64,000 bases of DNA from Geodermatophilus sp. DSM 44513. Its GTDB lineage: Bacteria > Actinomycetota > Actinomycetes > Mycobacteriales > Geodermatophilaceae. The notes below the pieces were generated by a model that saw nothing but the letters and a program-made list of their open reading frames with translations, ran no database searches and had not been told where the DNA came from. Of this stretch, positions 42,491 through 64,000 are shown in pieces. Made by a program: the position numbers and the translations under genes. Where the stretch lies: positions 2,046,001 through 2,110,000 of the forward strand of contig NZ_CP135963.1 in the NCBI RefSeq assembly GCF_032460525.1, written 5' to 3'. How positions within the stretch are numbered: position 1 is the first letter of the stretch; each line of letters starts with the position of its first letter.

Positions 42491-42540
42491 ACTCGTTGCT
42501 GAGGGGTTTGACCACCATTGTGACCACCGTTAGGCCACCC

Positions 42541-44103: not shown

Positions 44104-44151
44104 GTGTCGCCCTCCTCGTCGGTCCGGCCTCGTGCGCCGGCGTTCGGCGCG

Positions 44152-44349: not shown

Positions 44350-44475
44350 GCGAGCGCAGGTGATCGGGCGGTCACCGGTCGCAGCGCAGGCATGGAGGGT
44401 CCGGCTCGACGAGGTCCGCACGGTCGAGGGTTCGGCGTGCTGGGCTGGGGTTGGCGGCCCGGGCACACCGGGCGC

Positions 44476-46202: not shown

Positions 46203-46306
46203 GTCCTGAGTCTGCAGGCGGTCCTCCGGTAACCCGTCACCACGCATTCGTTATCGGTGGAGGCGCATATTGGAACCGCCCCCTATTGCTCTCCGAGATC
46301 GGGGTG

Positions 46307-47755: not shown

Positions 47756-48093
47756 CGGTCCTCGCGGGGACGGCGGACGGTGGCCCGGATCGGGCGCAGT
47801 TCTCCGATGCCCAGCCCCTCCTTCGCTGTGTCGGTGCCGGTCTTGGTCCGCTCGGCTTGCTTGACGACGGGCTCGAGCAGGTCGCTGGGCTGGCAGTCGA
47901 GGATGTCGCAGAGCGCGGCGAGCAGGTCGACGTTGACCCGCTGCGGCGGGGTGGTGACCAGCTTGTGCACGTACTGCCGGGTCAGGTGCACTCCGCGGTC
48001 GGCCAGCAGCGGCACCAGCTCGCTGGTCTGGAAGATGCCGCGGCCGGCCATCACCTGCCGCAGGTGCCAGCGCATTTCCACTCGGCGGGTCAT
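47752..48093 (-). CDS. XRE-type helix-turn-helix protein of the recombinase operon
   Basis: 113 aa. The Cro/CI-type fold is visible: MRWHLRQVMAGRGIFQTSEL, VPLLADRGVHLTRQYVHKLV and VDLLAALCDILDCQPSDLLE. The C-terminal 40 residues are basic. ATG 48093 overlaps the recombinase stop (ATGA), and its own stop overlaps the next gene (GTGA), so the three genes are translated as a unit. It may regulate the operon or assist recombination. Confidence 0.85.
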   Translation of the reverse strand: MTRRVEMRWHLRQVMAGRGIFQTSELVPLLADRGVHLTRQYVHKLVTTPPQRVNVDLLAALCDILDCQPSDLLEPVVKQAERTKTGTDTAKEGLGIGELRPIRATVRRPREDR

Positions 48094-49286
48094 CGGGCTG
48101 CCTCCGTCCCGGTCGTCGTCCTCATCGGCGTCGCCGTCTTCGTCGTCGTGGTCGTCTCGGTGGCCGCCGGTGGTGGCGTGTAGACCCGGGCCAGCGCCGC
48201 GCGCAGCGTCTGGTTCTTGAAGTCGTTGCTGACCGAGGTGTAGATCGCCGTGGTCGAGGCGTAGGCGTGTCCGACCTGCTCTTGGACGAACCGCTCCGGG
48301 TAGCCGAACTCGATCAGGTGCGTGACGTAGGAGTGGCGCAGGCAGTGCAGGGTCAGCTCCGCCGGCAGCCCGGCCTCGGCGCGCAGCGCCGCGAACCGCT
48401 TGTCCAGGTGCTTGGTCGAGACCCGGGTCAGCCGCTCGGTGACCCACAGCGCCGGATGATCGGCCGGCCGCAGGATCGGGCGGGCCTGCTCGGTCCACTG
48501 CCGCAGCCCGGCGATCGCCCAGTCGAACTCCGGCACCGCCAGCACGGTGCGCCGGCGCGGGACGCCGCCACGGATCGCCTTGCCGTAGCGCACATGCACC
48601 GACCCGTAGCTACCCCAGTCGGGCACGTGCGGGTTCGGCCGCAGGTCGGCCACGTCGAGGCGGCACAGCTCGTTGCGGCGCAACCCGAACGCGTAGCAAG
48701 TCTTGATCATCTGCGCGTCGCGCAGCGCGGCCAGCGCGCCCTTGCGACCGGAGCCGGCGATCGCCTCGACCCGGGAGTCGAGGTGGTCGAACAGCTGCTG
48801 CAGCTCGTCATAGGCCAGCGGGCGCCGGCCCGGCCGGCCCTCGTAGTCCGTCAGGTGCGCAACGGTGTTCCACTCGTGACACACCTGGGTGGGCACCTGA
48901 CCGAACCGGTCGCGGCACTGGCGCGGCCACTCGTAGCGGGCGTCGGTCAGGTAGTCGCAGAACATCCGCAGCGTCAGGTGGTAACCGCGGATCGTGGCCG
49001 GCGCCAGCCGCTGTTCACCGGAGGTGAGCGAGGCGGTGAAGTCCTCCACGTCCGCCGCCGTCCACGCCCACGGGTAGCCCTCGGTGAACTCGGTGAACCG
49101 GCGCAGCAGCGATAGCCGCGGCTCCACCGTCGCATCGGCCAGCATCCGTGACTTCTGCTGTCTGGCCCAGCCGGTGAGCATCGCCTCGAACACGGCGGCC
49201 GCCTCGTCCAGATGGACGACTCCGTCGACCAGCACCAGCCCGGCCGAGCCAGGGACCTTCGCCAACCCGGAGCCCCCAGCTGTCAA
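48090..49286 (-). CDS. Tyrosine recombinase of a three-gene mobile unit
   Basis: 398 aa. N-terminal core-binding domain (FEAMLTGWARQQKSRMLAD, then LLRRFTEFTEGYPWAW). Catalytic residues: Arg in FGLRRNELCRLDV, HCLRHSYVTHLIEFG, GHAYAS, and the nucleophile Tyr in TTAIYTSVS. The C-terminus is Thr-rich (TETTTTTKTATP). TTG 49286 is the longest start; a GTG further in is possible because no strong ribosome-binding site precedes the TTG. The type is unlike the phage integrase at 42541 and is the probable transposase of the unit. Confidence 0.87.
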   Translation of the reverse strand: MTAGGSGLAKVPGSAGLVLVDGVVHLDEAAAVFEAMLTGWARQQKSRMLADATVEPRLSLLRRFTEFTEGYPWAWTAADVEDFTASLTSGEQRLAPATIRGYHLTLRMFCDYLTDARYEWPRQCRDRFGQVPTQVCHEWNTVAHLTDYEGRPGRRPLAYDELQQLFDHLDSRVEAIAGSGRKGALAALRDAQMIKTCYAFGLRRNELCRLDVADLRPNPHVPDWGSYGSVHVRYGKAIRGGVPRRRTVLAVPEFDWAIAGLRQWTEQARPILRPADHPALWVTERLTRVSTKHLDKRFAALRAEAGLPAELTLHCLRHSYVTHLIEFGYPERFVQEQVGHAYASTTAIYTSVSNDFKNQTLRAALARVYTPPPAATETTTTTKTATPMRTTTGTEAAR

Positions 49287-49536
49287 CGGAAACGCGACAA
49301 TGTCGCATCAACGTAGCGGCGACCGGTCCCACCTCAGGTCAGCGACGCACCGGAGGGTGACCACCTGACGAGAAGGCGCCCAGCTGACGCCCGAAGTGTC
49401 AACTTTCCGTCGATATGCGGCCTTTGAGCCCACGGTGCATGAGGTGTGATGCCTGGTGATCTTGGAGTCTCCGGTGCTGTCTACCGTCGACGCCGGTGCC
49501 CTACTGGAGCAGAGCCGCCGGTCCGTCTCAGGGCAC

Positions 49537-50027
49537 TCAGGGCAGGTCGGGCGCGCCGCTCCAGCGGGCCCGCCGCCGGTAGGACCGCGGCACCGAGTCC
49601 GGTGCCCGGCCGAGGGCGGGACGGTCCCGGTCGTAGACGCGGCCGTCCTCCAGTTGACCGGCGAGCTCGCCGAGCAACCTTGGCCAGTCCCGACGGTTTG
49701 GCTCGAGGGGGTACACGGATCTCAACCTGCCGCTTCAGCACCGGCACTGCCGTCCGGTCGGAGGTCGCCGCGCGGCTCTGCTCCCAGGCCCGGTGCCGGC
49801 AGGTGGCCGAACACCACTTCGGGATCGGACCGCGGCTGCGCGGGGTGATCGGTCCGCTGCACCATCCGCACGTAGTCGTCGCGGGGTGCGTCGTTCGGGC
49901 CCGTCCGCCGCAGGACTGGGCTGGCCCGGACGGGGTCCTTCCTCCGGCGATCGCTGCTGGCGCTTGCGGCGTTGCTGTTCGCGCGTTCGCCGTCGGGCCC
50001 GGTACTCAGGATGCCGCTGGTTCCCAT
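49537..50027 (-). pseudogene. Decayed zinc-finger gene, copy 2
   Basis: The same gene as at 45716, in the same orientation, on the other side of the recombinase operon. In order, but in changing frames, it reads MGTSG, PEYRARRRTREQQRRKRQ, CGWCSGPITPRSRGPIPKWC, SATCRHRAWEQSRAATSDRT, and RRDWPRLLGELAGQLEDG to a stop. At least three frameshifts are needed. The first one is one base lost directly after MGTSG compared with copy 1. The copies differ by many substitutions, so the duplication is not recent. Confidence 0.75.
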
Positions 50028-50171
50028 GTCACCATTCGGCTGGCGATCCTCCTGTTAGCCGTCACCACGAGGCCGCTACGCGGCCATGTGGACAGAGCAG
50101 ACCCGACCTCGCGGCTGGCGGGTTCCGACCGCGCGCTGACGACGGGATCGCTGCTTGCGCTTCGGCTTCTC

Positions 50172-51029
50172 TCAGGTCCGGTCCATCGTCGGGACGGCAT
50201 TCAGCGGCGGATCAGACACAGGCTGCGTCGACGGTCCGGTGTCGTGGTGTGGACCATCGGCCCCGGCCCCGGCCCCGGGCACGACGACGGGGCGGCCGTC
50301 GACCATGCCCAGCACGGCGTCGCAGGCATAGAGCTGCTGCACCCGGCGCGCGTCGATGACGTCCCCCACCAGTCCGCTGTCGAGCATGCGGCCGTCCCGG
50401 CCGAGTGCGGCCGCATCGTCGGCGAACCACAGGGCGTGGTTCGGGTCGTGGGTGCAGACCAGGGCTCCGCAGCCCTCGTCGACCAGGCGCCGAATGGTGG
50501 ACCACACCAGCAACTGGTTGCCAAAGTCCAGGCTGGCGGTGGGCTCGTCCAGCAGGAGGAAGCGAGCACCCTGAGCCAGTGCCCGGGCGATGAGCACCAG
50601 CTGTCGCTGCCCGCCGCTGAGAGTGAGGTAGGAGCGGGCGGCCAGGTGGGTGAGGCCGAGCCGGTCGAGTGCGTCGAGGGAGGCTGCGACGTCCGCCGGG
50701 GTCGGGCCGAACACGCCGCCGCGCTGCGGGTTGCGACCCATGAGCACGACGTCCCGGACGAGGAAGGAGAAGGACGGTGCGTGCTCTTGGGGGACGTAGG
50801 CGATGGTCCGGGCGAGCCGCCGGGCGTCCCACCGGGCCAGTGACTCCCCGTCCACGGTGACCAGGCCGCGGTGTCGCTGGACCCCGACGATGCAGCGAAA
50901 CAGTGTCGACTTGCCTGCACCGTTGGGGCCGAACAGAACGGCGAGGCGGCCCTGGGCCACCTCGAGGCTGACGCCGTCGAGGACGGTGACGCCGCCGAGT
51001 CGGGTGGACAGGTCCTTGATCTCGAGCAC
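50172..51029 (-). CDS. ABC transporter ATPase, metal-chelate/cobalamin type
   Basis: 285 aa. Walker A GPNGAGKST at residues 34-42, Q-loop VPQEHAPSF near 79, signature TLSGGQRQL near 142, Walker B FLLLDEPTASLD near 162 and switch His in CTHDPNHALW. It is of the FecE/BtuD/FepC group that powers uptake of siderophores, cobalamin or zinc chelates. GTG 51029 follows the permease stop by 2 nt. The last 35 residues are a Gly/Pro/Thr-rich tail. It forms one operon with the permease and binding protein. Confidence 0.93.
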   Translation of the reverse strand: MLEIKDLSTRLGGVTVLDGVSLEVAQGRLAVLFGPNGAGKSTLFRCIVGVQRHRGLVTVDGESLARWDARRLARTIAYVPQEHAPSFSFLVRDVVLMGRNPQRGGVFGPTPADVAASLDALDRLGLTHLAARSYLTLSGGQRQLVLIARALAQGARFLLLDEPTASLDFGNQLLVWSTIRRLVDEGCGALVCTHDPNHALWFADDAAALGRDGRMLDSGLVGDVIDARRVQQLYACDAVLGMVDGRPVVVPGAGAGADGPHHDTGPSTQPVSDPPLNAVPTMDRT

Positions 51030-51031
51030 GA

Positions 51032-52108
51032 TCAGATCCCCCAGCCGGTGCCGCGGCGGCGCAGCAGGGCCACGAGAAACGGCGTGCCGAGGGCGGCGGT
51101 GACCACGCCGATCGGCAGTTCGCCGGAGTGCAGGGTGCGGGCGAGGTCGTCGCAGATCATGAGGAAGGTCGCGCCGAGGAATGCCGACACGGGAATGACG
51201 GCCCGGTTGTCGGCGCCGGCGATCATCCGGGCGGCGTGCGGGATGAGCAGCCCGATCCAGGCCACGATGCCAGCCACCGAGACGGCCAGCGCGGTCAGGG
51301 CCGTCGCCACCACGATCAACACTCGTCTCGTCACCGCCGGGTCCACGCCGAGCGACCGGCACTCCTGGTCGCCGAGGGTCAGCAGGTTGAGCCGCCACGA
51401 GTAGGCCCAGGTCAGCAGTACGCCGACCGCGACCAGTGGGGTGACCAGGACGACGTCTTCCCACCGGGAGGTGTAGAAGCCGCCCAGCACCCAGAACACC
51501 AACCGGCGCAGCTGGGCGTCGGTGCCCAGGTACTGGAACATCGCAAAGACCGACATGAAGAAGGCGCCCACGATCACCCCCGACAGGACCAGGGCGATTG
51601 TCGAGCCTCGGTTGCGGGCCAGGAGCGTCGTGGCGCTGACGGCGATCGCGCCGAAGACGAACGCCGACAGCTGGACGGAGAAGGGGACCGGGAAGAGGAC
51701 CGCGAGGCCTGCGCCGCAGGCCGCGCCCGCCGAGACGCCGAGGATGTAGGGCTCGACCAGCGGGTTGCGGAAGGTGCTCTGGAACACCCCGCCGCTCACC
51801 GCGAGGGCAGCACCGACGGCGGCAGCGAGGAGCGTGCGCGGCAGCCGGATGTCCCAGATGACCGTCGTCTGGGTCGAGACGACCTGCAGGGGCAACCCGA
51901 GGCCTGCGCCGAGCACGGTGGCGACGTCGGCCAGCGGGATCCAGTAGGCGCCGACGCACACCGACACGATCAGGGTCACGGCCGCGGCGGCGGCGGAGAG
52001 AACGATGGCCAGTCGCCGTCGCCACGTGGCGGCCAGCGCCGCCCGGAGAGCGTCCCCGGGCGGCGCGGCCACGTCGTCTCGCGCCGGCGCGACCGACGCT
52101 CCCTGCAT
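51032..52108 (-). CDS. ABC transporter permease, FecCD/BtuC type
   Basis: 358 aa with about 9-10 membrane helices. Family segments are DIRLPRTLLAAAVGAALAVS, GGVFQSTFRNPLVEPYILGV and GIVAWIGLLIPHAARMIAG, all typical of iron-siderophore/cobalamin permeases. A single permease gene is present, so it would work as a homodimer. ATG 52108 overlaps the stop of the binding protein gene (ATGA). Confidence 0.94.
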   Translation of the reverse strand: MQGASVAPARDDVAAPPGDALRAALAATWRRRLAIVLSAAAAAVTLIVSVCVGAYWIPLADVATVLGAGLGLPLQVVSTQTTVIWDIRLPRTLLAAAVGAALAVSGGVFQSTFRNPLVEPYILGVSAGAACGAGLAVLFPVPFSVQLSAFVFGAIAVSATTLLARNRGSTIALVLSGVIVGAFFMSVFAMFQYLGTDAQLRRLVFWVLGGFYTSRWEDVVLVTPLVAVGVLLTWAYSWRLNLLTLGDQECRSLGVDPAVTRRVLIVVATALTALAVSVAGIVAWIGLLIPHAARMIAGADNRAVIPVSAFLGATFLMICDDLARTLHSGELPIGVVTAALGTPFLVALLRRRGTGWGI

Positions 52109-53229
52109 CAGGACCCCAGGTCGGCGCGGTACCGCTGGCCTTCGATGGCCTCGGCGGCCGCGTCGGCATCGAGGCCGAAGGCGCCCTGGTAGAACTCCTG
52201 CTCCCAGGCGGCCAGGTCGACGTCGGCGAAGGCGTCGGGGTAGAGGGCGGCACCCACCTTCATCAGGGCCACCGGCGTCTCCAGGGTCGCCCGCCACTCG
52301 TCGTAGCCCAGCGCGGTCACCCTCTGGTCCCGGATCGCCCGAAGGTCACGCAGCTTGTTCCAGTCCAGCCCTATGTTTGCGCCGGCGTAGACCTCCTGCG
52401 TGCTCAGGTAGCCCTCGTGGCCGATGACGACGAGCACGTCGGGGTCGTGGGCGAGGAGTTGCTCCTCGGAGATCGGCACGAAGGTGCCTGGCCCGGCCAC
52501 GTTGCGAGCGCCCAGCAGTGTCGAGAACAGGTGGGACTGCAGGCTCTTCTCGCCCATCAGGTAGGCGGTGGTGGCGAAGAGGGCCACGCTGGGTGCCGGG
52601 GCGTCGTCCGGGATCCTGGTGAGTACCTCGTCGATCCCACTGCGCAGGTTCTCGACGATGCGATCGGTGTCGGAGCTGCGCTCGTACACGGTGCCCACGG
52701 TGTCGACGATCGAGTACGCCGTGTCCATGCTCGGCTCGTCGAAGTTCGAGGGGGAGAGGAAGACGACCACGGGGATGCCGAGGTCCTCGATGGTCTGCAC
52801 GGCCTCCTCGTGCAGGGTCCGATCCTCGTCGCTGGCCACCCATGCCTCCAGGAACACCACGTCGGTGTCGAGGGAGGCGAGCTCCTCGTAGTTGATGCCG
52901 CTCCAGGCTGAGCCCACCTCGACGGCGTCGGCGATGCCGTCGACCATGACCTGGCGGGTGGGGTCGTCCTTGGTCGCCGGGTCGACGGCCACGATCGTGT
53001 TGTCCTCGCCCAGGATCGCCAGCGTCTTGCTGACCAGGCCCTCCCACTCCATGACGGCGACTCGGTCGGGACCGGTGGGCACCTCCACGACCCGGTCGAA
53101 GTCGTCGGTGATCTGGACGGTCGCGGGCGCTTCCTCGGCCGCTGACGTCGGGACCGACGGCGTGCCGCAGGCGGAGAGGACGACGGCGCCGAGCACGGCG
53201 ATCGGCGCCGTTGGGCGGAGCGGAGGCAT
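52108..53229 (-). CDS. Metal-chelate substrate-binding lipoprotein
   Basis: 373 aa. A lipoprotein signal (PIAVLGAVVLSAC, Cys 21) anchors it outside the membrane. The mature part is a two-lobe BtuF/FecB-type protein (DDFDRVVEVPTGPDRVAVME, then YEELASLDTDVVFLEAWVAS, ISEEQLLAHDPDVLVVIGHE). ATG 53229 is preceded by GAAAGAG. It diverges from the biosynthetic operon across a 162-bp promoter region with a Zur/Fur-like palindrome. The ligand is unknown; by context it should be the product of that operon bound to a metal. Confidence 0.92.
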   Translation of the reverse strand: MPPLRPTAPIAVLGAVVLSACGTPSVPTSAAEEAPATVQITDDFDRVVEVPTGPDRVAVMEWEGLVSKTLAILGEDNTIVAVDPATKDDPTRQVMVDGIADAVEVGSAWSGINYEELASLDTDVVFLEAWVASDEDRTLHEEAVQTIEDLGIPVVVFLSPSNFDEPSMDTAYSIVDTVGTVYERSSDTDRIVENLRSGIDEVLTRIPDDAPAPSVALFATTAYLMGEKSLQSHLFSTLLGARNVAGPGTFVPISEEQLLAHDPDVLVVIGHEGYLSTQEVYAGANIGLDWNKLRDLRAIRDQRVTALGYDEWRATLETPVALMKVGAALYPDAFADVDLAAWEQEFYQGAFGLDADAAAEAIEGQRYRADLGS

Positions 53230-53350
53230 GACAGCTCTTTCTCGAGTGGGACGGGGCGGTGCGGCGCCGCCGGCAGGGGACACCGGACGACGCGGTCGCA
53301 GCGATTACGGGTGGGCGGTTGACCACCGGACCGTGCGTGGTGTCGGATGT

Positions 53351-53371
53351 TAACGAAAATCATTCTCAACA
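53351..53371. promoter_or_regulatory. Zur/Fur-like palindrome in divergent promoter
   Basis: The core GAAAATCATTCTC (53355-53367) is symmetrical around C53361 except for one pair, and matches the Zur-type GAAAATCATTTTC at 12 of 13 positions. It lies between the importer operon and the biosynthetic operon, 25 nt before the ATG at 53392. The actinobacterial iron regulator IdeR/DtxR uses a different TTAGG...CCTAA box, which is absent here. Confidence 0.65.
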
Positions 53372-53391
53372 CAAGGCATGGGGGAACGCTC

Positions 53392-54951
53392 ATGACCACC
53401 ACCGCCGCCGAAGTCCCGCCGCGGTCTCTCGCTGACCCGTCGCGCCCGGAGCCTCCGCCGGCCGACGACCGGCCGGTCAGCGCGGACCAGCCGCTCTACC
53501 TGGACCCCGTCATCGGTGCAGCGCTCTCGCGGATCCTGCGGGAGCGAGCCACGTTGAGCGGCTGGCTGAGGAGTTTCGGCAGCCCGCTGGCCGTCGTGCT
53601 GCCCGACCAGGTCGCCGACAACCTCGCCGCCTTCCAGACCGTCGCCGCCGAGCGCCGGATCGATGCCGAGGTGTACTACGCGCACAAGGCCAACCGGTCG
53701 ACCGCCTTCGTGCGACGACTCGCAGACAGCACGGCGCGCATCGACGTCGCCTCGGTCGGCGAGCTCGAGCACGCGCTCGGATGCGGCTTCGCGCCGGAGC
53801 GGATCATGGTCACCGGCCCCAAGACACCGGAGCTGCTGTGGCTCTGCGCGCAGCTGGGCGTGCTGGTCAACGTCGACTCGCTGGCGGAGCTTGCGGCGCT
53901 GGCCAGCGCCGACATCGGCCGGGGCAAGCTCCCGGTGCTGCTGCGGTTCTCGGCCTTCGACTCCGGGGGGTCGGTGCGTTCACGGGTCTCGCGATTCGGG
54001 ATGCGGGAGGACCAGGCGGACGCCTGCCACGGAGTGCTCGACCGGTGCCGCGACAGACTCGAGCTCCGCGGCGTTGCCTACCACCTCGACACCGTGGGCA
54101 TGGCGGAGAAGGTCGCCGCGCTGGACGGGTCGTTCCGGCTGCTGCGGCGCTTCCAGATGGCAGGCCATCCGGCCGACGTCATCGACATCGGCGGCGGGTT
54201 CGGGGTCAACTACCTGCGCGACGCGCGGCAGTGGGAGGACTACACCTCGGGGCTGACCCGCGCGGTGCTCGGCCACCGGTCACCAGTGACCTGGCGGGGA
54301 CACGGCTACGGCCTGCGCGCGGAGAACGGGCGGCTCAAGGGATCACTGGGTCTGTATCCGGCGCACCGGCCCTCGGCTGGCCCGGCCTACGTCGCCGACC
54401 TGCTCGACCAGCGCTCGCCAGCCTTCCGGCAGCGGTTCGCCGACCTGCTCAGCGAGACGATGACCCGGCTCTTCCTCGAGCCCGGTCGCGCGCTGGTCGA
54501 CCAGAGCGGACTGGTGCTGTGCCGGGTACTGGAGACCCGACCGACAGGGGAGGGGCGGGTCTTCGTCCGCGTTGACCTGAACCACTCCGACGTCAGCCTC
54601 GAGGAGCACGGCGTCCTGATGGACCCGGTCGTGCTGCCCGGTCACGGCGGCCCACGGGAGCCCGGCCGCGGGTTCGTCATCGGGAACTTGTGCCTGGAGG
54701 CCGACTTCGTCTCCCGGCGGGAGATCCACTTCCGGTCGATGCCCCGTGCCGGCGATGTGCTCGCGTTCGTCAACACGGCGGGCTACTTCATGGACTTCTC
54801 CGCCGACCACGCTCTGTCCCAGCCGATCGCCCGGAAGGTGGCGGCCTCTGCGGACGCCTCGCGGTGGGCGCTCGACGAGGAGTACTGGCCCCTCGACCGG
54901 TCGGCGCCCCCGGGAGCGGCCGGTACGTCCATTCGAGAGGAGGACCGGTGA
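53392..54951 (+). CDS. PLP-dependent decarboxylase, Y4yA/siderophore type
   Basis: 519 aa, fold-type III (alanine racemase/DAP decarboxylase) enzyme. PLP Lys 99 is in YYAHKANRS, the phosphate loop is DIGGGFGVNY near 265, EPGRALVDQSG near 362, NLCLEADFVSRR near 432 and NTAGYFMDFSADH near 462. It is longer than LysA and resembles siderophore-cluster decarboxylases (PvsE, SbnH, AcsE kinds) that decarboxylate diamino acids or their conjugates. ATG 53392 with GGGG-A site is preferred; ATG 53347 in frame would place the regulatory palindrome inside the coding region. First gene of a six-gene operon. Confidence 0.88.
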   Translation: MTTTAAEVPPRSLADPSRPEPPPADDRPVSADQPLYLDPVIGAALSRILRERATLSGWLRSFGSPLAVVLPDQVADNLAAFQTVAAERRIDAEVYYAHKANRSTAFVRRLADSTARIDVASVGELEHALGCGFAPERIMVTGPKTPELLWLCAQLGVLVNVDSLAELAALASADIGRGKLPVLLRFSAFDSGGSVRSRVSRFGMREDQADACHGVLDRCRDRLELRGVAYHLDTVGMAEKVAALDGSFRLLRRFQMAGHPADVIDIGGGFGVNYLRDARQWEDYTSGLTRAVLGHRSPVTWRGHGYGLRAENGRLKGSLGLYPAHRPSAGPAYVADLLDQRSPAFRQRFADLLSETMTRLFLEPGRALVDQSGLVLCRVLETRPTGEGRVFVRVDLNHSDVSLEEHGVLMDPVVLPGHGGPREPGRGFVIGNLCLEADFVSRREIHFRSMPRAGDVLAFVNTAGYFMDFSADHALSQPIARKVAASADASRWALDEEYWPLDRSAPPGAAGTSIREEDR

Positions 54952-56273
54952 GGTACGACAGCATCACCGACGCGATCGGCAACACCCCGCTGCTCCGCAT
55001 CGACCCGTCGGTCCACCGGCTGCGGCATGTCGACCTCTACGCCAAGCTGGAGATGCTCAACCCGTTCGGGTCGGTCAAAGACCGCGCCGCCTGGTCGATG
55101 GTCCGCGCCACGATCGAGGACGCCGGGCGCGAGGGCCGCACGGTGATCGAGCTGTCCAGCGGCAACACGGCGAAAGCGCTCGCGGTCATCGCCGGCATGC
55201 ACGGGGTCCGTTTCCGCTCGGTCACCAACCGCATGAAGGTGCCCGAGGTCAAGGACCTGCTGCACCTCATCGGAGCCGAGATCGAGGAGCTTCCTGGCCA
55301 GGCCGAGTGTCTGGATCCCACCAACGTCGACGACCCGCTGACCATGATCCACCAGCAGGTGGGCAGCGACCCGTCATACCTGCACACCGACCAGTACTAC
55401 AACCCGCGCAACACCCAGGCCCACGTCGAGACGACCGGCCCGGAGATCCTGCGCGACCTGGACGGGAACGCGCCGGACTACTTCATCGCCTGCGTCGGCA
55501 CCGCTGGCTCCTCGACCGGGATCGCCCAGGTCCTGAGGGCCGCGCGCCCCGACATCCGCGTCATCGGGCTGGTCGCGCAGAAGTCGGACTTCGTGCCGGG
55601 CATCCGCAACATCGACGAGGTGCACGAGGTCGGACTCTTCGACCCGGAGATCTACGACGAGATCGAGGCGGTCAGCGCGGACGAGGCGATCGACGGCACC
55701 CTCGAGCTCGTGCGCCGGTGCGGCCTGCTCGCCGGGCCCACCGGGGGAGCCGCCTACCACGGCGCCACCCGGCACCTCCGCAAGGTCGACGACCAGCTGG
55801 AGGCCGACGGCGCCGGCGAGCGCCGCACCGCCGTCTTCGTGGTCTGCGACCGGGTGGAGAGCTACATGAGCTACTTCCGGGCACGGCGACCCGAACTCCT
55901 CGGCGACCGGAGCGGCCCACGGGTGACCGCCACGGCTGAGCAGGTCGCGGCCGCGCGAACCCTCGACCCGGCGCAGGCGGCCGCGTGGATCGCCGACGCC
56001 GGCCCGTTGGTCGTCGACCTGCGAGGAGGCTTCGCGTACTCCACCAGCCACATCGCGGGCGCGGTCAACGTCCCCGACGAGCTGTTCGCCGACCTGGTCC
56101 GTGGCGGTCTGCCCTTTCCTCGGACCCGACCGGTGCTCCTGGCCTGCCCGGTCGGTGAGCAGTCCCGACGATGGGCCGCGGTCCTGACCGGTCTCGGCCA
56201 CCCCGACGCGCGCAGCCTCGACGGGGGCATCGTTGCGTGGCGGGACGCGGGTCAGGCGCTGGAGCGGAACTGA
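54948..56273 (+). CDS. SbnA/cysteine synthase-like PLP enzyme fused to a rhodanese domain
   Basis: 441 aa. Residues 1-320 are a fold-type II beta-replacement enzyme: ITDAIGNTPLLRIDPS, Lys 44 in NPFGSVKDRAA, SSGNTAKALAVIAG near 70 and GTAGSSTGIAQVLRAA near 186. The NPFGSVKDR form is that of SbnA-type synthases, which join O-phosphoserine and glutamate on the way to 2,3-diaminopropionate. Residues about 335-441 are a rhodanese domain with DLRGGFAYSTSHIAGAVNVP and active-site Cys 400 in CPVGEQSRR. GTG 54948 overlaps the previous stop and has GAGAGGAGG upstream. No SbnB partner is in the window. Confidence 0.87.
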   Translation: MRYDSITDAIGNTPLLRIDPSVHRLRHVDLYAKLEMLNPFGSVKDRAAWSMVRATIEDAGREGRTVIELSSGNTAKALAVIAGMHGVRFRSVTNRMKVPEVKDLLHLIGAEIEELPGQAECLDPTNVDDPLTMIHQQVGSDPSYLHTDQYYNPRNTQAHVETTGPEILRDLDGNAPDYFIACVGTAGSSTGIAQVLRAARPDIRVIGLVAQKSDFVPGIRNIDEVHEVGLFDPEIYDEIEAVSADEAIDGTLELVRRCGLLAGPTGGAAYHGATRHLRKVDDQLEADGAGERRTAVFVVCDRVESYMSYFRARRPELLGDRSGPRVTATAEQVAAARTLDPAQAAAWIADAGPLVVDLRGGFAYSTSHIAGAVNVPDELFADLVRGGLPFPRTRPVLLACPVGEQSRRWAAVLTGLGHPDARSLDGGIVAWRDAGQALERN

Positions 56274-57505
56274 TGGCCGCCACCGACACCGCCCGACCGT
56301 CGAGTCTTTCTGGCGCCGCGCCCGAGCTGCTGGCGTGGCATCACCGGGTGCGGGCGCAGTTTCCGCAGATCGTCAACTCCCCGGCGGCCTACCTGGACTC
56401 CTCGGCGACCAGCCAGAAACCGCGGGCGGTCCTCGATGCCGTCATCGACTACCTGACCACGACGAATGCCAACGCCGGACGCGGCTCCTATCCCTGGGCC
56501 AACCGGACGACGCGACTGATCGAGCAGGTCCGCGAGCAGGTCAAGCACTTCCTCGGCGACCCTGGCCCGCAGGAGTCCTCGGTGCACTTCGTCGGTGGCG
56601 CGACCGAAGCGCTGCGCCGGGTGGCGACCGACTGGCTCGCCAGCGCCCTCCGGACCGGTGACGAGATCGTCGTTCCGGGCGGCGACCACTCGGCGAACGC
56701 GGTCCCGTGGCACGACGTCGTCCGCGACCTGGCGCGGCGCGGGATCAGCGTGATAGCGCACGCGATGCCGTACGAGACCTCCGGCGACTACGACACCGCC
56801 GCCCTGGCCGCCCTGATCGGTCCGCGCCTGCGGTTCGTCGCGGTCACCCACGTCCACCACGTGTACGGGGTGAACATGAACGTCCACCGGGTCCGCCGCG
56901 TCGCGGGCGAGGACGTCGTCATCTGCCTGGACGCGGCCCAGAGCGTCGGCCACCTCCCCGTGGACCTGGCGGCGCTCGACGTCGACTTCCTGGCCTTCTC
57001 AGGGCACAAGGCGATGGCGCTGCCCGGCGTCGGCGTCCTGTGGGCGGGCAACCGTCGGACGCCCCGCTTCGAGCTGGCCGGCTGGGCCGGCAGCGCGAAC
57101 ACCGCGGGCATCGTCAGCCTGGGCGCCGCCCTGACCTGGCTCGCCGAGGCCGACCCCGCGCGGATTGACCGGTGGACCACCGGACTCGGGGCGGTGCTCA
57201 CCGATGGGCTCGCCGACCTGCCGTCGATCGACGTGCTGGGCTGTCAAGCCAGCCTTCGCAGGGACTCCGACGTTCAGCGCCGCCAGGGCATCGTGACGTT
57301 CCGGCACCGTCACCTGCCCGCCGGCGATCTCGGTTTCTACCTCGAGTCCCAGGGCCACCTGGTGCGCGCGGACCACCACTGCCAGGCCGGTAGGGACCGC
57401 CTGCCGTCGGTGCGGGTCAGCACTCACGCCTACACCTCGCCCGAGGAGATCTCCGGTCTCCTCGACCAACTCAGGGTCTTGGAGGAGAAGCGCCCGTGGC
57501 AGTAG
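56273..57505 (+). CDS. SufS/class V aminotransferase-like PLP enzyme
   Basis: 410 aa. It has the cysteine-desulfurase layout: YLDSSATSQKPRAVLDAV near 40, DAAQSVGHLPVDLAALDVDF near 222, PLP Lys 246 in FSGHKAMALPGVG, and a Cys 370 in RADHHCQAGRD where SufS has RxGHHC. So the sulphur-accepting Cys position is kept, although the bases after it differ. It could be a desulfurase, an amino-acid lyase or a transaminase. No SUF genes are near. ATG 56273 overlaps the previous stop by one base. With the rhodanese fusion before it, it suggests sulphur handling. Confidence 0.83.
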   Translation: MAATDTARPSSLSGAAPELLAWHHRVRAQFPQIVNSPAAYLDSSATSQKPRAVLDAVIDYLTTTNANAGRGSYPWANRTTRLIEQVREQVKHFLGDPGPQESSVHFVGGATEALRRVATDWLASALRTGDEIVVPGGDHSANAVPWHDVVRDLARRGISVIAHAMPYETSGDYDTAALAALIGPRLRFVAVTHVHHVYGVNMNVHRVRRVAGEDVVICLDAAQSVGHLPVDLAALDVDFLAFSGHKAMALPGVGVLWAGNRRTPRFELAGWAGSANTAGIVSLGAALTWLAEADPARIDRWTTGLGAVLTDGLADLPSIDVLGCQASLRRDSDVQRRQGIVTFRHRHLPAGDLGFYLESQGHLVRADHHCQAGRDRLPSVRVSTHAYTSPEEISGLLDQLRVLEEKRPWQ

Positions 57506-58743
57506 TCGCCATCACCGACGTGTACGGACCCACCCTGCGGTACGCGCGAGCCTTCCGGGAGGCCGGCCACGACGTCGTGCGCGTCCAGAGCACCCCCGAG
57601 GTGCCCCGCGTCTACCGTCCCGGGCTCGCCCCGGCGGTGGTCGCCGAGGTGTTCCTCGCTGATCTCAGCTGCGAGGACCCGGCGAGGGAACTCGCCCCCT
57701 ACGCGCCGATCGCGGTGCTCGCCGGGGGCGAGTGCGGCGTCGAGCTGGCCGACCGCTTGGCCGAACAGCTCGGCCTCCCCGGCAACGGCACCCGTACCAG
57801 CGCCGCGCGGCGCAACAAGTTCGCCCAGGTGGAGGCGGCCCGACGGGCGGGGCTGCGCGCGGCGCGCCAGATCCTCGTCGACGACGAGGAGAAGCTGCGG
57901 GCATGGCACGCCGAGATCGGCGGTCGCGCGGTCGTCAAGCCGGTCCGGAGCGCCGGCAACGACGGCGTGCACTTCTGCGACCGCCCGGAGGACTCCGTGC
58001 GCGCCTACCGCGCAATCCGCGACGCGGTGAACATCTTCTCCGTCCGCAACGAGGGCGTGGTCGCCCAGGAGTTCCTCCACGGCACCGAGTACGTCGTCAA
58101 CACCGTCAGCTACCGGGGCCGCCACCGGGTGACCGACGTGTGGCGCTACACGAAGCTGTCGGCCAACGGCGTCAGCGACCGGGTGAGCGCGGCGGTGTCC
58201 GTCCCGCCCAGCGCCCCGGCCTGGTCGGCGCTGACCTCCTACGCCGCCGGCATCCTCGACGCGATGGAGATCAGGTACGGGCCAGTGCACCTGGAGATCA
58301 TGCTGACCCCGGACGGGCCGTGCCTCGTCGAGCTCGGCGCACGGCTCTCCGGCGCCGACACCGCCTACTACGCGGCGCTGGCCAACGGCTCCTCGCAGAT
58401 CGACTGGGCCGTGCTCGCCGCCATCGACCCCGACACCTTCCTCGACCGCCACGACGAGCCGCTGCGACCGCAGCGGCACGTCGCCATGTGCTTCCTCACC
58501 TCTCCGGTGGCCGGAACACTCCGCTCCTACCCCCGTCTGGCGGAGGTGCAGGCACTGGACAGCCACCACAACGTGGTGACCATCGTCGGCCCCGGCGGAC
58601 GTCTACAGGTCACCGTCGACGACACGACCGAACCGCTGATGATCGGCCTGGCTCACCCCATCGAGTCGGTGCTCGAACGGGACCTGCTGACCGTGCACCA
58701 CCTCGACGGGTGCGGCTTCTACGAGCTGGCGGACACCCGATGA
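57496..58743 (+). CDS. ATP-grasp ligase
   Basis: 415 aa. N-terminal preATP-grasp domain (VAITDVYGPTLRYARAFREA), then the ATP-grasp core: NGTRTSAARRNKFAQVEAAR near 97, GGRAVVKPVRSAGNDGVHF near 142-160, VVAQEFLHGTEYVVNTVSY near 190 and the metal-binding HLEIMLTPDGPCLVELGARL near 264-283. Enzymes of this type (BacD, DdaF, PvsA) join amino acids or acids by amide bonds through acyl phosphates. It is the only obvious condensing enzyme of the operon. GTG 57496 overlaps the previous gene by 10 nt. Confidence 0.9.
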   Translation: MAVVAITDVYGPTLRYARAFREAGHDVVRVQSTPEVPRVYRPGLAPAVVAEVFLADLSCEDPARELAPYAPIAVLAGGECGVELADRLAEQLGLPGNGTRTSAARRNKFAQVEAARRAGLRAARQILVDDEEKLRAWHAEIGGRAVVKPVRSAGNDGVHFCDRPEDSVRAYRAIRDAVNIFSVRNEGVVAQEFLHGTEYVVNTVSYRGRHRVTDVWRYTKLSANGVSDRVSAAVSVPPSAPAWSALTSYAAGILDAMEIRYGPVHLEIMLTPDGPCLVELGARLSGADTAYYAALANGSSQIDWAVLAAIDPDTFLDRHDEPLRPQRHVAMCFLTSPVAGTLRSYPRLAEVQALDSHHNVVTIVGPGGRLQVTVDDTTEPLMIGLAHPIESVLERDLLTVHHLDGCGFYELADTR

Positions 58744-60002
58744 GGCACTACTCCCGGCTCTGGCGGGTGCCGGGCGCACCGACGCTGCTGGTCGGCGGCG
58801 TCGTGGCCCGCGTGGGTCAGGGCGTCACGGTGATCGCCTGGCTGCTGCTCATCCGGCACGTCCGCGGCAACTACGCCGACGCGGCGGCGGTCACTGCCGC
58901 GATCGCCCTCTTGACTGCGGTCGCGGCCCCCATCGTGGGCCGTCTCGCTGACCGGTTCGCGGTCAGCCGGGTGCTCCCGTGGTGTGCGGCGGGTTACGTC
59001 ACCACCCAGCTCGCCCTGCTGCTGACGGTGCGAGCCGACGTCGGCCTGGGCTGGTTGCTGGTCCTCGGTGCTGCCAGCGGCGCGTCCTTCCCACCGATGT
59101 CAGCCGCGCTGCGCGCCACCTGGTCGGTGCTGACCTCACCGGACAGCGGCCGCGCCGACCTGCAGCGCACCGCCATGGCCGCCGAATCGGCGCTGTTCGA
59201 GCTGGCCTTCGTGGTCGGGCCGCTGCTGCTCAGCATCGCCGCGCTCACCACCGGCGTGATCGTGCCCGAGAGTCGAACCGCCGGCCCGACGGCAGCCCTG
59301 CTCGTCGCCACTGCCTGCACGCTGGTGGGCACGCTGTGGGTGGCGTGGGGTAGGGGCATGCGCTCGGTACGTCCGGTCGCCGGCCGGCCACCGACCCGCG
59401 GTCTCGGTCCGTTGCGGGCGGAGCGTTTCGGGCTGCTCCTCGGCACCGCCGCAGGCGTCATGTTCGCATTCGGAGTCGCCCCGGTGGCAATCGCAGCCTA
59501 CGCCGAACAGGCCCACGGCCACGCTGGGAGCACGGCGACAGGCGTGCTCATCGCCGTGTGGAGCCTGGGCAGCGCCGTCGCCGGTATCGTCTTCGGGGCT
59601 CTCCGTCTGCGGGCCGGGCTGGTGCGGCAGTACATCGTCCTCCTGGCCGGACTCACCGGCGGATACCTGGTCTGGGTGTTGGCGCCGGGCACAGGGGCGC
59701 TCGGCGCCGCGCTGTTCGTGACCGGCGGGGTGATCGCCCCAGCGCTGGCGGTGATGGCCGGCCTCGTGGCGGAGCTGACCGATGAGTCGATGCGCACCGA
59801 GGCGTACACGTGGCTCACGACGACCTCGATGGGCATCGCGGCGCTCGGATCCGCGGTCGCCGGCGTGGTCGTCGACGGCCGGCTCGGCGCCGAGGGCGGA
59901 TTCCTGCTCGCGGCCGTCTCGACCGGACTCGCGCTGCTGCTGGCCCCAGGCTTGCGCGTGCGTCGGCCGGCCACCGCCCCGGTGCCCGAGGTGGTGGCCT
60001 GA
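58740..60002 (+). CDS. MFS exporter
   Basis: 420 aa with about 12 membrane helices. The start of helix 1 (PTLLVGGVVARVGQGVTVIA) and the loop motif GRLADRFAVSRVLPW near 65 fit major facilitator drug/siderophore exporters. In the operon it most likely secretes the product, as PvsC does for vibrioferrin (inference). ATG 58740 overlaps the ATP-grasp stop by 4 nt, and its own stop overlaps the methyltransferase start by one base. Confidence 0.88.
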   Translation: MRHYSRLWRVPGAPTLLVGGVVARVGQGVTVIAWLLLIRHVRGNYADAAAVTAAIALLTAVAAPIVGRLADRFAVSRVLPWCAAGYVTTQLALLLTVRADVGLGWLLVLGAASGASFPPMSAALRATWSVLTSPDSGRADLQRTAMAAESALFELAFVVGPLLLSIAALTTGVIVPESRTAGPTAALLVATACTLVGTLWVAWGRGMRSVRPVAGRPPTRGLGPLRAERFGLLLGTAAGVMFAFGVAPVAIAAYAEQAHGHAGSTATGVLIAVWSLGSAVAGIVFGALRLRAGLVRQYIVLLAGLTGGYLVWVLAPGTGALGAALFVTGGVIAPALAVMAGLVAELTDESMRTEAYTWLTTTSMGIAALGSAVAGVVVDGRLGAEGGFLLAAVSTGLALLLAPGLRVRRPATAPVPEVVA

Positions 60003-60706
60003 TGGAGCAGGAACTCGCCGCGGGCTGGGTCGAGCGCTGGGACGCGCAGCAGGAGCGCTACGCCCACCGCAGGGAGGAGCGCTTCGCTGTCATCGTGGAC
60101 CTTGTCCGTCGTGCGACGGCGGGGGACCGCGCCCCCGTCGTGCTCGATCTGGGCGCCGGCCCCGGCTCCCTGGCAGCACGGGTGGCCGACGGAGTCCCCG
60201 GCTCGCGGGTGCTGGCCTTCGAGTGCGATCCGGTGCTGGTCGCGATCGGGCGTTCCTGGTGCGGGGACCGCGTGGAGTTCGTCGAAGAGGTCGTCGGCGC
60301 ACCCGGATGGTCCTCGACCATACCGGCCGGCGTCGCCGCCGCCGTCTCCTCCACGGCCCTGCACTACCCCTCGCTCCAGCAACTGCGCAGCATCTACGCC
60401 GACGTCCACCGCCTGCTCCGCCCCGGCGGGCTGATGGCGAACGCGGACCACTTCGGCCCGCCCGACCGCACGCCGCACGATCCCGCCCACCTGGAGCCGT
60501 GGCACTCGTGGTGGCGGTCGGCAGCCGACGCGCCAGAGCTGGCCGAGGCCTTCACTCTCCGTAGGTCGGCGCCCGCCGTCAACGGCGACAACCGGCTGAC
60601 GGTGCAGGACCACGCTGAGGCGCTGACCGCAGCCAGGTTCGTCGAGGTCGAGGCGATCTGGCGTGACGGCCGCAGCGCGGTGATAGCTGCACGGCGACCG
60701 CACTGA
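60002..60706 (+). CDS. SAM-dependent methyltransferase
   Basis: 234 aa. The SAM motif is VVLDLGAGPGSLAARVAD near residue 45-62, an acidic residue in LAFECDPVL near 74, the ALHYPS motif IV near 120 and LRPGGLMANADHF near 140. It is a class I small-molecule methyltransferase, related in style to ubiquinone/menaquinone and tailoring enzymes. As last gene of the operon it may methylate the product. ATG 60002 overlaps the exporter stop (TGATG). Confidence 0.88.
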   Translation: MEQELAAGWVERWDAQQERYAHRREERFAVIVDLVRRATAGDRAPVVLDLGAGPGSLAARVADGVPGSRVLAFECDPVLVAIGRSWCGDRVEFVEEVVGAPGWSSTIPAGVAAAVSSTALHYPSLQQLRSIYADVHRLLRPGGLMANADHFGPPDRTPHDPAHLEPWHSWWRSAADAPELAEAFTLRRSAPAVNGDNRLTVQDHAEALTAARFVEVEAIWRDGRSAVIAARRPH

Positions 60707-60862
60707 GGCGGCTCCCCTCGGGTCGCCCACCACACCTGCCCGGGACTGGCGCCGACGCTGACGCAAGCCGGTGTTGCCCCCGAGCGCTACTCCCCGTACC
60801 CAGGAGCCGAGCCACGGGCACCGGCCCGGCCCAAGCGAGCGTCCGGCCCCGAGCGCTGGAAG

Positions 60863-61162
60863 TCAGTGCTCGTCGTAATGGTCGCCGCGTGGCGCGTGGC
60901 GATGTGCCCCGTGCACGTAGTCGACGTGGTCCTCGTGCTGCACCTTGGCATGGCCACAGCTGTCCGCGTGCTCGTGGTCGTGTGCCCCGTCGACGGCGTG
61001 CACCTGGCCGGTGCACTCGTCGATGTGGCCGTCGTGCGCATGGTGCAGGTGTCCGTCGTGCAGGTGATCGACGTGCCCATCGTGCCCGACCGCCCCGTGG
61101 CCGCAGTCCGGTGCATGGACGTGGGCGTGTTCGGGATGGGTCTGATGCTCCGTCGCGGTCAT
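60863..61162 (-). CDS. Histidine-rich metal-binding protein
   Basis: 99 aa with 27 His and 3 Cys, plus many Asp/Glu. Two repeats are visible: CGHGAVGHDGHVDHLHDGHL and CGHAKVQHEDHVDYVHGAHR, each ending in a D-E-H or D-E-C-like close. Such sequences bind zinc, nickel or copper, and related proteins occur in Streptomyces near zinc-uptake genes. No signal peptide, so a cytoplasmic metal buffer or chaperone is likely. ATG 61162 has GAAGAGGAG upstream. It converges with the biosynthetic operon; this supports a metal-related role for the locus. Confidence 0.85.
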   Translation of the reverse strand: MTATEHQTHPEHAHVHAPDCGHGAVGHDGHVDHLHDGHLHHAHDGHIDECTGQVHAVDGAHDHEHADSCGHAKVQHEDHVDYVHGAHRHAPRGDHYDEH

Positions 61163-61282: not shown

Positions 61283-62086
61283 TCACCGCATGACCAGGCC
61301 GCCGTCGACGAACAGGCAGGCGCCGGTGACGAAGGCCGCCCAGCTGCTGGCGAAGTAGAGGACGGCCCCCGCGACGTCGTCCGGTGTGGCCAGGCGCCGC
61401 AGCGGTGCCGCCTGTTCTAGGGCGTCGCGCTGCTCGTCGGTCGCCGTCCGGCTGGCGTCGGTGGGGTGCACCATGCCCGGTGCGACGCAGTTGACGGTGA
61501 TCCCGAACGGTCCGAGCTCGGCGGCCAGGGTGCGCGAGTAGCCCAGCAGCGCGGCCTTGGCGGTCGTGTAGTCGTGATAGGGGACGCTGGGCCGTTCAAC
61601 GAGGTCGGTGACCACGTTGACGACCCGGCCACCGCCGCGGGCCTGCAGGCCGGGCAGCGTCGCCCGGCAGACGTTGACCGCGCCGCCCAGGCTGCCCTCC
61701 AGCTGGCGCTGGTGGTCCGGCCACGACGTCTGCCACACCGTCCGCCGGGCGAGGAGGTCGAAGGTGTAGCCGCGCAGGGCGTTGTTCACGACGACGTCCG
61801 CGGGCCCGAAGCGGTCCTCCACCTCGCGGACCGCGGCCTGGACGGCGTCGGGGTCGGTGACGTCGGCCTGGACGGCGTGCGCCCGCCCCCCGGCGGCCTG
61901 GATGTGGGCCACCACGGCTGCGGCCGAGGTGGCGTCGCGCAGGTAGTTGACCGCGACGGCGGCGCCGTGCGCGGCGAGCGCCCGGGCGATCACGGCGCCG
62001 ATGCCCCGGCTGGCGCCGGTCACCAGCGCGACCCGGTCGCGCAGCAGGTCACTGCGGCCCAGCCCGCCGTGCGGTGGCGGGCTCAC
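61283..62086 (-). CDS. Short-chain dehydrogenase/reductase (FabG-like)
   Basis: 267 aa. NAD(P) site VTGASRGIGAVIARALAAHG near 22-41, NNALRG in place of NNAG near 100, and the catalytic YHDYTTAKAALLG near 170-182. The end FVTGACLFVDGGLVM is typical of FabG-type reductases. GTG 62086 overlaps the LuxC-like stop (GTGA), so it is the third gene of the operon. It may reduce a 3-oxo group or interconvert alcohol and aldehyde. Confidence 0.9.
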   Translation of the reverse strand: MSPPPHGGLGRSDLLRDRVALVTGASRGIGAVIARALAAHGAAVAVNYLRDATSAAAVVAHIQAAGGRAHAVQADVTDPDAVQAAVREVEDRFGPADVVVNNALRGYTFDLLARRTVWQTSWPDHQRQLEGSLGGAVNVCRATLPGLQARGGGRVVNVVTDLVERPSVPYHDYTTAKAALLGYSRTLAAELGPFGITVNCVAPGMVHPTDASRTATDEQRDALEQAAPLRRLATPDDVAGAVLYFASSWAAFVTGACLFVDGGLVMR

Positions 62087-63615: not shown

Positions 63616-64000
63616 GACCGGCCTCCCTCGTTCGCCGCGAGCAGCTCGTCCAGGGCGAGCGAGCACCCCCGGGCCGCGCTGCCCTGCGCCCGGCCCAGCA
63701 GCACGAACCCGCCTGCCGGGCCGCCCTCCGCGAGGTGACCGACGTCCTCGGCCAGGACGGCCAGGACCGAACCGCGGTTGGCCAGGTCGTGGTGCACCAG
63801 CAACCCGCGCTGCCCCGGCGGCACCGGCCGGCCGGTGCCGGCATCCACCGCCTGCACGCGGGCCCACGGCGGCACGGCCTTGACCCGTGGTGCCGGGTCC
63901 CGCCCGAGCCACGCCCGCCGCAGGGACGTGTCGTAGTACTGGGTGCTGATCTCGGTCATCCCGTAGTAGTTGACGCACCACGCGTCCGGGACGCCCAGCC
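63612..64000 (-). CDS. LuxE-like acyl-protein synthetase, C-terminal part
   Basis: The last 128 codons are in the window; the gene continues past 64000. VNYYGMTEISTQYYDTSLRR is the signature of LuxE/PaaK-type adenylate-forming enzymes, followed by KAVPPWARVQAVDAGTGRP and GQRGLLVHHDLANRGSVLAV. LuxE activates fatty acids with ATP and hands them to LuxC. The gene order LuxE, LuxC, SDR with 4-nt overlaps marks one operon. Confidence 0.88.
   Translation of the reverse strand, partial: LGVPDAWCVNYYGMTEISTQYYDTSLRRAWLGRDPAPRVKAVPPWARVQAVDAGTGRPVPPGQRGLLVHHDLANRGSVLAVLAEDVGHLAEGGPAGGFVLLGRAQGSAARGCSLALDELLAANEGGRS

Follow-up and report, generated by a model that had tools for sequence, protein, structure and literature searches.

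In Geodermatophilus sp. DSM 44513, a gene cluster within the 64,000-nucleotide stretch of DNA analysed here (the window) is probably a Zur-repressed locus for a zinc metallophore, or zincophore, that was acquired by horizontal transfer. Its products would probably allow a small zinc-binding molecule to be made, exported and retaken under zinc scarcity, without the usual siderophore assembly enzymes. To our knowledge, few metallophores are made outside the NRPS and NIS routes, and those that are escape searches keyed to NRPS or NIS synthetases. If the product is indeed a zinc ligand, the locus would represent a new and easily tested zinc-acquisition chemistry in the best-studied antibiotic producers. 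The initial annotation had proposed a metallophore made without NRPS or NIS synthetases; this is supported by an exporter, a chelate importer and Zur boxes, but its claim that nothing similar has been described does not hold.

The cluster comprises a BtuCDF-type importer diverging from a six-gene operon, an arrangement already annotated and with which frames, strands and Pfam matches agree. On the minus strand are genes for a btuD-like ABC ATPase of a chelate importer (50172..51029; PF00005, ABC_tran, 1.1e-29), a btuC/FecCD-like permease (51032..52108; PF01032, FecCD, 4.9e-83) and a btuF-like substrate-binding lipoprotein (52108..53229; PF01497, Peripla_BP_2, 3.2e-15). The plus-strand operon encodes a LysA/ODC-like PLP decarboxylase (53392..54951; PF02784, Orn_Arg_deC_N, 6.8e-25), a CysM/SbnA-like synthase with a fused rhodanese domain (54948..56273; PF00291, PALP, and PF00581, Rhodanese), a SufS-like cysteine desulfurase (56273..57505; PF00266, Aminotran_5, and SufS-family models), an L-amino-acid-ligase/DdaF-like ATP-grasp ligase (57496..58743; ATP-grasp_4, PRK07206), an MFS transporter that is probably an exporter (58740..60002; PF07690, MFS_1, 8.7e-19), and a class I SAM methyltransferase (60002..60706; PF13649, Methyltransf_25, 1.9e-9). 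Successive genes of the operon overlap by 4, 1, 10, 4 and 1 nt, within the range of 1 to 10 nt given before, and a His-rich, probably zinc-binding protein does lie at the cluster end (60863..61162, minus strand; 27 of 99 residues are His, with no Pfam match). Homologues of this protein occur near the cluster in two relatives (L016, L059) and near ribosomal-protein paralogues in another (L034). Third-position GC is high, internal stops are absent and open frames are intact in 10/10 genes. The nine-gene set, including the divergent importer, is also present in Hoyosella rhizosphaerae (L013) with 42-74% identity per gene (71% for the ATPase at the same position and 70% for the permease), so that the window cluster is more than a chance grouping. 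As the 3′ part of the tRNA-Pro has no repeat of at least 14 nt elsewhere in the window, the right end of the island is not fixed by an attachment repeat.

Pfam and NCBIfam revealed no NRPS or NIS gene among the ten proteins of the locus, which bears out, for these ten proteins, the stated absence of NRPS. The accompanying statement on IucA/IucC holds at the locus (Pfam) and fails genome-wide, since two such genes are found ∼244 kb away in the host genome. Among the best 25 NCBIfam matches per protein, to which all NCBIfam statements refer, only the ATP-grasp protein passed a cut-off (PRK07206, ‘hypothetical protein’). Likewise, none of the ten proteins matched the nicotianamine-synthase-like or opine-dehydrogenase Pfam families that mark staphylopine-type opine metallophores. 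The suggestion of an SbnA-type diamino acid precursor is not supported, as the locus lacks SbnB (OCD family; Pfam, ten proteins) and the best full-length structural match of the synthase is aspergillomarasmine A synthetase; the curated SbnA model scores 157.5 bits against the synthase, far below its cut-off of 349.95. Two OCD-family genes exist elsewhere in the host genome, from where an SbnB-type (OCD) activity may act in trans.

One scan of representative genomes identified 184 relatives of the synthase, and the following counts, with presence and identity determined by tblastn, refer to the best 80 of these 184; by record title, 68 of the 80 are Streptomyces loci. Apart from two cut contigs, all of the 80 (78 loci) combine decarboxylase, CysM/rhodanese synthase and SufS, and these three genes form the near-constant unit. 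To take the six genes as the unit is thus not supported: the ATP-grasp and window-type MFS genes are absent from the examined stretch in 72 of the 80 loci, mostly Streptomyces and some on short contigs. The core could thus act in a pathway whose product does not depend on this MFS protein for export. A methyltransferase is present in 75 of the 80 loci, if every match of more than 60 bits within the stretch is counted, with weak matches in L016 (34%) and L072 (32%). The ATP-grasp gene was rejected as a marker, since relatives at 46-49% identity in three genomes (two in G140, one each in G200 and G357) sit among other genes, without the core; alone, it does not mark the system. Of 7995 candidates scored in the protein database, 318 are ATP-grasp relatives at E ≤ 1e-90; these come without gene context and were not used for counts. 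Where named, the 120 listed are actinobacterial. Among the matches listed, one relative at 86% lies on a 7-kb contig. Viral contigs gave four pattern matches and no true relative, and plasmids gave two Streptomyces megaplasmid matches, both without annotation.

Catalytic residues of the core are highly conserved. In the decarboxylase, the PLP-Lys is found in 86 and the Cys of the active-site motif in 87 of 90 aligned rows, the others being gaps but for one. The rhodanese Cys400 is present in 89 of 90 rows, the remaining row being a gap and the counted Cys of L137 sitting in a seemingly broken frame. The PLP-Lys, His, two Arg and Cys370 of the SufS-like protein are found in 89/89 rows, and by alignment this protein has the residues of a cysteine desulfurase (PLP-Lys, His, substrate Arg and loop Cys). 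Sulfur-carrying cysteines are thus conserved in both SufS and the rhodanese domain. Foldseek places the synthase model closest, at full length, to aspergillomarasmine A synthetase (8h4q, 8h4h), with a slight lead over CysM (1.1e-22 versus 2.3e-22); full-length identity to the former is 24-25%, and by identity the PALP domain is closer to CysM. Arg220 was discarded as proof of O-phosphoserine use, because the loop Arg shared with Mycobacterium tuberculosis CysM is also present in E. coli CysM.

The conserved SufS and rhodanese cysteines would also suit a metabolic bypass during zinc starvation, in which SufS and the rhodanese-fused synthase mobilise sulfur independently of zinc and the transporters are unrelated. 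Such a bypass agrees with the nearest single-domain relatives of the synthase, which are CysM enzymes, and with the lack of the window-type exporter in 72 and of window-type BtuFCD in 78 of the 80 loci. Nevertheless, we regard it as unlikely: it needs neither a LysA-type decarboxylase nor a methyltransferase, yet the decarboxylase stays with synthase and SufS in 78 of the 80 loci; using cysteine as the sulfur source for cysteine synthesis would be circular; and the window operon diverges from a chelate importer.

Transport genes are more variable than the core. BtuFCD is linked to the core in only 2 of the 80 loci, Hoyosella L013 and Micromonospora L016, both syntenic; FecCD-type permease and ATPase genes (38-43%) lie within the examined stretch of four more (L024, L026, L052, L087); and an Opp-type importer is found upstream in 2 of the 8 ATP-grasp loci (Pfam run on one, L070). 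The operon without its importer in relatives, an outcome that the initial annotation had named as counting against a metallophore, is thus seen in part. An MFS gene accompanies the ATP-grasp gene in 8/8 loci. In the window, both an exporter (MFS) and a chelate importer (BtuFCD), with predicted direction and cargo, are linked to the operon. The best NCBIfam models for the btuD-like protein are corrinoid, F420-0, heme and siderophore ATPases, those listed all below cut-off. The btuF-like protein has no match at E ≤ 1e-40 in the 60 other genomes searched, 25 of them congeners.

The ATP-grasp protein scores 182 bits with the DdaF model, below the cut-off, and its best solved relative is the L-amino acid ligase 30vh (1.1e-50). 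This resemblance would be in keeping with an antibiotic-like secreted small molecule, such as an antimetabolite of the amino acid or dipeptide type, with the MFS protein providing self-protection and zinc control being incidental. We consider this improbable, as two unrelated importer types adjoin the operon (BtuFCD in the window and two loci, Opp in two), which argues for re-uptake.

A predicted Zur box, CGAAAATCATTCTCA (53354..53368), lies in the divergent promoter region between importer and operon. It differs from TGAAAATCATTTTCA at two positions, a match for which 100 shuffles give an expectation of 0, departs from the Streptomyces coelicolor ChIP motif at 1 of 11 specified positions and scores 13/15 on the 21-bp actinobacterial Zur motif. 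In the host genome, which has four FUR-family genes, a near-identical palindrome precedes an ABC-3 permease gene (zinc/manganese type) by ∼20 nt. The degenerate ChIP motif occurs there at 38 places with at most one mismatch (reversed control, 2), mostly GC-rich sites, so only two boxes from these own-genome matches are used; the single perfect match is at 866527.

Ten ATP-grasp loci were scored for the Zur motif: the window, 8 of the 80 and 1 further genome. The region upstream of the decarboxylase reaches at least 11/15 in 8 of the 10 (0.08 expected), three of these eight scoring only 11/15 (L016, L051, L117) and L016 having its best 15-mer boxes away from the operon. In the other two, the box precedes an Opp importer whose genes end just short of the decarboxylase. 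For the 72 loci without ATP-grasp, upstream counts refer to 70 (L049 and L071 left out) and gap counts to 67, five loci lacking an adjacent methyltransferase match. A Zur-like box precedes the methyltransferase in 44 of these 67 gaps at a score of at least 10 (0.71 expected), and 8 of the 67 loci are without a box by the same criteria; motif and regions were picked after a first look, and related loci are not independent. By these predicted boxes, the core is tied to Zur at different promoters in different loci.

Zinc-regulon-like neighbours were sought in three relatives. Paralogues of ribosomal proteins L28 and S14 and a CobW_C-domain (COG0523) GTPase neighbour the locus in L059, ribosomal proteins S18 and type B L31 with another such GTPase in L034, and a ZnuA-family importer in L028, for which the manganese model scores top, manganese and zinc models both being below cut-off. 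Zinc is the likely metal of the locus because of the Zur boxes together with these neighbours. The least credible reading is an iron siderophore or cobamide locus, with BtuFCD importing a corrinoid or a ferric chelate and with the palindrome being something other than a Zur site. It accords with the importer's best models, which are those of corrinoid, heme and siderophore transporters and fall below cut-off. However, Rfam returned no match, and thus no cobalamin riboswitch, at E ≤ 0.5 in 48-64 kb of the window; in the relatives scored (L049, with its decarboxylase cut by the contig start, excluded), IdeR/DtxR-like boxes preceding the decarboxylase carry 8-11 mismatches in 19, no better than shuffles; and the relatives' neighbours are zinc-regulon-like.

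For the zinc metallophore, we infer chemical steps, metal, secretion and re-uptake from the gene content, box, conservation and catalytic residues seen directly. Upon zinc depletion, Zur would leave its box (53354-53368), allowing expression of the two divergent units. The CysM/SbnA-rhodanese enzyme would convert O-phosphoserine or a similar serine ester to aminoacrylate, to which a nucleophile is added. If the enzyme acts like aspergillomarasmine A synthetase, the nucleophile could be the nitrogen of an amino acid and the product an aminopolycarboxylate; the conserved SufS-rhodanese pair suggests that sulfur might also, or instead, be delivered as persulfide. The decarboxylase would then remove one carboxylate, the ATP-grasp enzyme add an amide-linked residue and the methyltransferase cap the product, which the MFS protein would export and BtuFCD re-import as its zinc complex. 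The product may therefore be an aminopolycarboxylate, a thiol, or both, and the His-rich protein could be tied to the operon. More tentatively, the loci could form a persulfide-relay metallophore family, in which a dedicated SufS passes sulfur through the synthase-fused rhodanese into a thiol or thioether aminocarboxylate ligand. The core would then serve zinc in Streptomyces, with the Zur-controlled methyltransferase as the switch; in a second subfamily, where a CopZ-like HMA-domain protein accompanies it, the metal would be a different one, perhaps copper.

Among the literature listings searched, no description of the window cluster appeared. To state that it matches no described cluster was nonetheless too strong, since the aminopolycarboxylate metallophores EDDS (Zur-controlled) and EDHA are known in actinomycetes, according to the available text of the sources. 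There, [S,S]-EDDS of Amycolatopsis japonica is a Zur-controlled, zinc-repressed chelator (PMC9252823, PMC6103462), and EDHA of Streptomyces scabiei is an aminopolycarboxylate siderophore whose cluster was missed by antiSMASH in one study (PMC8914351). The window locus resembles both by description, as a putative actinomycete chelator locus under predicted Zur control in the case of EDDS and as a candidate aminopolycarboxylate locus in that of EDHA (scab_5231-5311). EDDS contains neither an amide bond nor sulfur, whereas the window operon encodes both an ATP-grasp ligase and the SufS-rhodanese pair. The staphyloferrin B (Sbn) and vibrioferrin (Pvs) loci include an NIS synthetase, in contrast to the window locus, which has neither this nor SbnB.

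Chelator synthesis with sulfur carriers has precedents: the chelators pyridine dithiocarboxylate and thioquinolobactin obtain sulfur from rhodanese or sulfur-carrier proteins, but there it ends as a thiocarboxylate, and no fusion to a beta-replacement synthase is known. We know of no precedent for a sulfur relay into such a synthase. M. tuberculosis CysM, the best solved structure by sequence (single query) and 33-34% identical in the model comparison, is OPS-dependent and works with a sulfur carrier protein, according to structure entry titles. It lacks a rhodanese fusion and is not known to lie in a metal-regulated biosynthetic operon. Finally, the fungal aspergillomarasmine A synthetase (8h4q, 8h4h) and Fda4 of Fusarium poae differ in that the available text mentions no SufS or decarboxylase partner, and the domain placement of the former departs from the window synthase model (rmsd 15.5 over 419 residues). 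However, the same text describes OPS as acceptor and marasmins as metal chelators, and these enzymes combine PALP and rhodanese-like domains, as does the window synthase with its C-terminal rhodanese domain.

The arrangement described in the initial annotation, a BtuFCD importer diverging from a six-gene operon, is borne out: the three importer genes (reverse strand) and the six operon genes (forward strand) are all intact, and both the layout and the overlaps between operon genes (4, 1, 10, 4 and 1 nt) agree. Pfam and NCBIfam searches confirm the broad gene classes (decarboxylase, CysM/SbnA-rhodanese synthase, SufS-like enzyme, ATP-grasp ligase, MFS transporter and methyltransferase) and little beyond; the ATP-grasp protein is the sole one above an NCBIfam cut-off among the matches listed, in a subfamily named 'hypothetical protein'. 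Histidine accounts for 27 of the 99 residues of the His-rich protein. Short-chain dehydrogenase and LuxC-type acyl-CoA reductase genes form the right border of the locus (61283-63696). The host genome also contains two IucA/IucC genes (G000:C1:2350755-2355658, ∼244 kb away), which are an NIS-type locus separate from the importer and operon, and two OCD-family genes, likewise away from the locus.

The case for a metallophore is strengthened, with zinc now the likely metal. Between the starts of btuF (53229) and the decarboxylase gene (53392) lies CGAAAATCATTCTCA (53354-53368), which agrees at 10 of 11 specified positions with the S. coelicolor ChIP motif tGaNNatSatNNtCa, as quoted in PMC5472717. 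A search of the whole window with TGAAAATCATTTTCA, allowing up to three mismatches, returned this site as its sole match, and the same search of 100 shuffles returned none. Elsewhere in the host genome, which has four FUR-family genes, CGAGAATGATTCTCA precedes an ABC-3 permease gene by ∼20 nt, and an ArsR-type gene lies next to that permease gene. An Rfam scan of 48-64 kb gave no match at E ≤ 0.5.

Scanning genome contigs with the synthase yielded 184 relatives, of which the best 80 were examined. The core of decarboxylase, synthase-rhodanese and SufS is found together in 78 of these 80 loci; the two incomplete ones (L030 and L049) are both truncated at a contig end. Of the 80 loci, 75 have a methyltransferase match, eight have ATP-grasp and MFS genes, and two have BtuFCD. 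The closest locus examined, L013 of Hoyosella rhizosphaerae, has the nine genes and their divergence as in the window (identities 74, 71, 70, 70, 70, 65, 64, 60 and 42%). In the Micromonospora locus L016 the importer is placed after the MFS gene, unlike in the window. In the Streptomyces loci L070 and L090 the end of an Opp-type importer (in L070, SBP_bac_5 and permease by Pfam) directly precedes the decarboxylase gene, and an extra ligase-like gene lies between the ATP-grasp and MFS genes (L070:13825-15069; L090:13815-15053), its L070 product showing weak likeness to PRK02186 and PRK07206 and no Pfam match.

Boxes in these relatives were scored against the 21-bp motif for actinobacteria given in PMC5472717, at its 15 specified positions. 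Upstream of the decarboxylase gene, eight of the ten ATP-grasp loci (the window, eight of the best 80 relatives and one further genome) score at least 11, against 0.08 expected from dinucleotide shuffles, three of them (L016, L051 and L117) at exactly 11; L070 and L090 fall below 11 there and have two-mismatch boxes upstream of their Opp genes instead. Among loci lacking ATP-grasp, 5 of 70 (L049 and L071 left out) score at least 12 upstream of the decarboxylase gene, and 44 of 67 (among L017-L092; five more without an adjacent methyltransferase match left out) score at least 10 in the gap between the SufS and methyltransferase genes, against 0.71 expected. Gap scores are just 6-8 in the five loci with an upstream box, and 8 of the 67 have neither box. 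The gap box precedes the methyltransferase gene rather than the operon, which would fit a zinc switch acting on methylation alone. In L132, another related locus, a methyltransferase gene without clear BLAST homology to that of the window adjoins SufS in the opposite orientation, with a box (12/15) immediately before its start. These counts are not independent, since the motif and scanned regions were chosen following initial inspection of the data and many of the Streptomyces are closely related. The scan of relatives for IdeR-type boxes also brought up a recurrent sequence close to TTAGGnnCGGGTGTACCTG, near the projected decarboxylase start in L063, L067, L076, L087 and L088, its L088 form being the palindrome AGGTAC-GGGT-GTACCT.

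Neighbouring genes were scanned in four related loci (L059, L034, L028 and L070). L059 is accompanied by L28, S14 (by score not of zinc-ribbon type Z), a CobW_C-domain (COG0523-type) GTPase and a His-rich homologue; in L034 the neighbours are S18, type B L31, a GTPase with a CobW_C domain and again a His-rich homologue. Beside L028 stands a ZnuA-family importer, whose genes match Azt (zinc) and Mnt (manganese) models, in every case below cut-off. Ribosomal-protein, GTPase and ZnuA-type genes such as these are usual Zur regulon members, as outlined in PMC6103462.

A second subfamily of the core is represented by L133 (G056), L134 (G417) and L135 (G164), with identities of 48-50% for the synthase, 35-37% for the decarboxylase and 36-38% for SufS. 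In L133 and L134 the SufS and decarboxylase genes are separated by one whose product carries a CopZ-like HMA domain at its C-terminus (Pfam scores of 25.8 bits in L133, above the cut-off of 24.8, and 23.9 in L134, just below it); against NCBIfam copper-chaperone models this product falls below cut-off. The core is therefore seen with metal handling twice, and the second subfamily is perhaps a copper counterpart; no box scoring at least 11 was found in its loci.

The locus was probably acquired by horizontal transfer. Neither the synthase (at 1e-60) nor the binding protein (at 1e-40) was found in any of 25 congeners, and for the ATP-grasp protein the top hit among congeners is a 29% paralogue. 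A His-rich homologue occurs in 1 of 18 congeners searched, and the His-rich gene may therefore be native to the host. GC content is 71.5% in the locus and 71.3% in the integrase region on its left, against 77.0 and 76.2% outside; farther left, 16001-22000 has a very high GC content (80-84%) and a strongly negative AT skew. Besides a tRNA-Pro gene with a phage-type integrase gene beside it (42541-43719), the integrase region (42363-50069) contains another gene of the integrase family (48090-49286) and encodes a protein that weakly matches an HTH domain. The inner recombinase genes are bracketed by an imperfect direct repeat of ∼590 nt (45662-46244 and 49483-50069; spacing ∼3.8 kb; 74-85% in its pieces), which ends ∼100 nt from btuD.

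The claim that the chelator type lacks precedent is weakened by the known chelators EDDS and EDHA, but no description of this enzyme set, with its SufS-rhodanese pair and ATP-grasp ligase, was found in the literature searched. EDDS of A. japonica is repressed by zinc via Zur (PMC9252823, PMC6103462), S. scabiei makes EDHA, a siderophore of the aminopolycarboxylate class (PMC8914351), and aminopolycarboxylic acid is listed among the cluster types in one actinomycete genome survey (PMC11260486).
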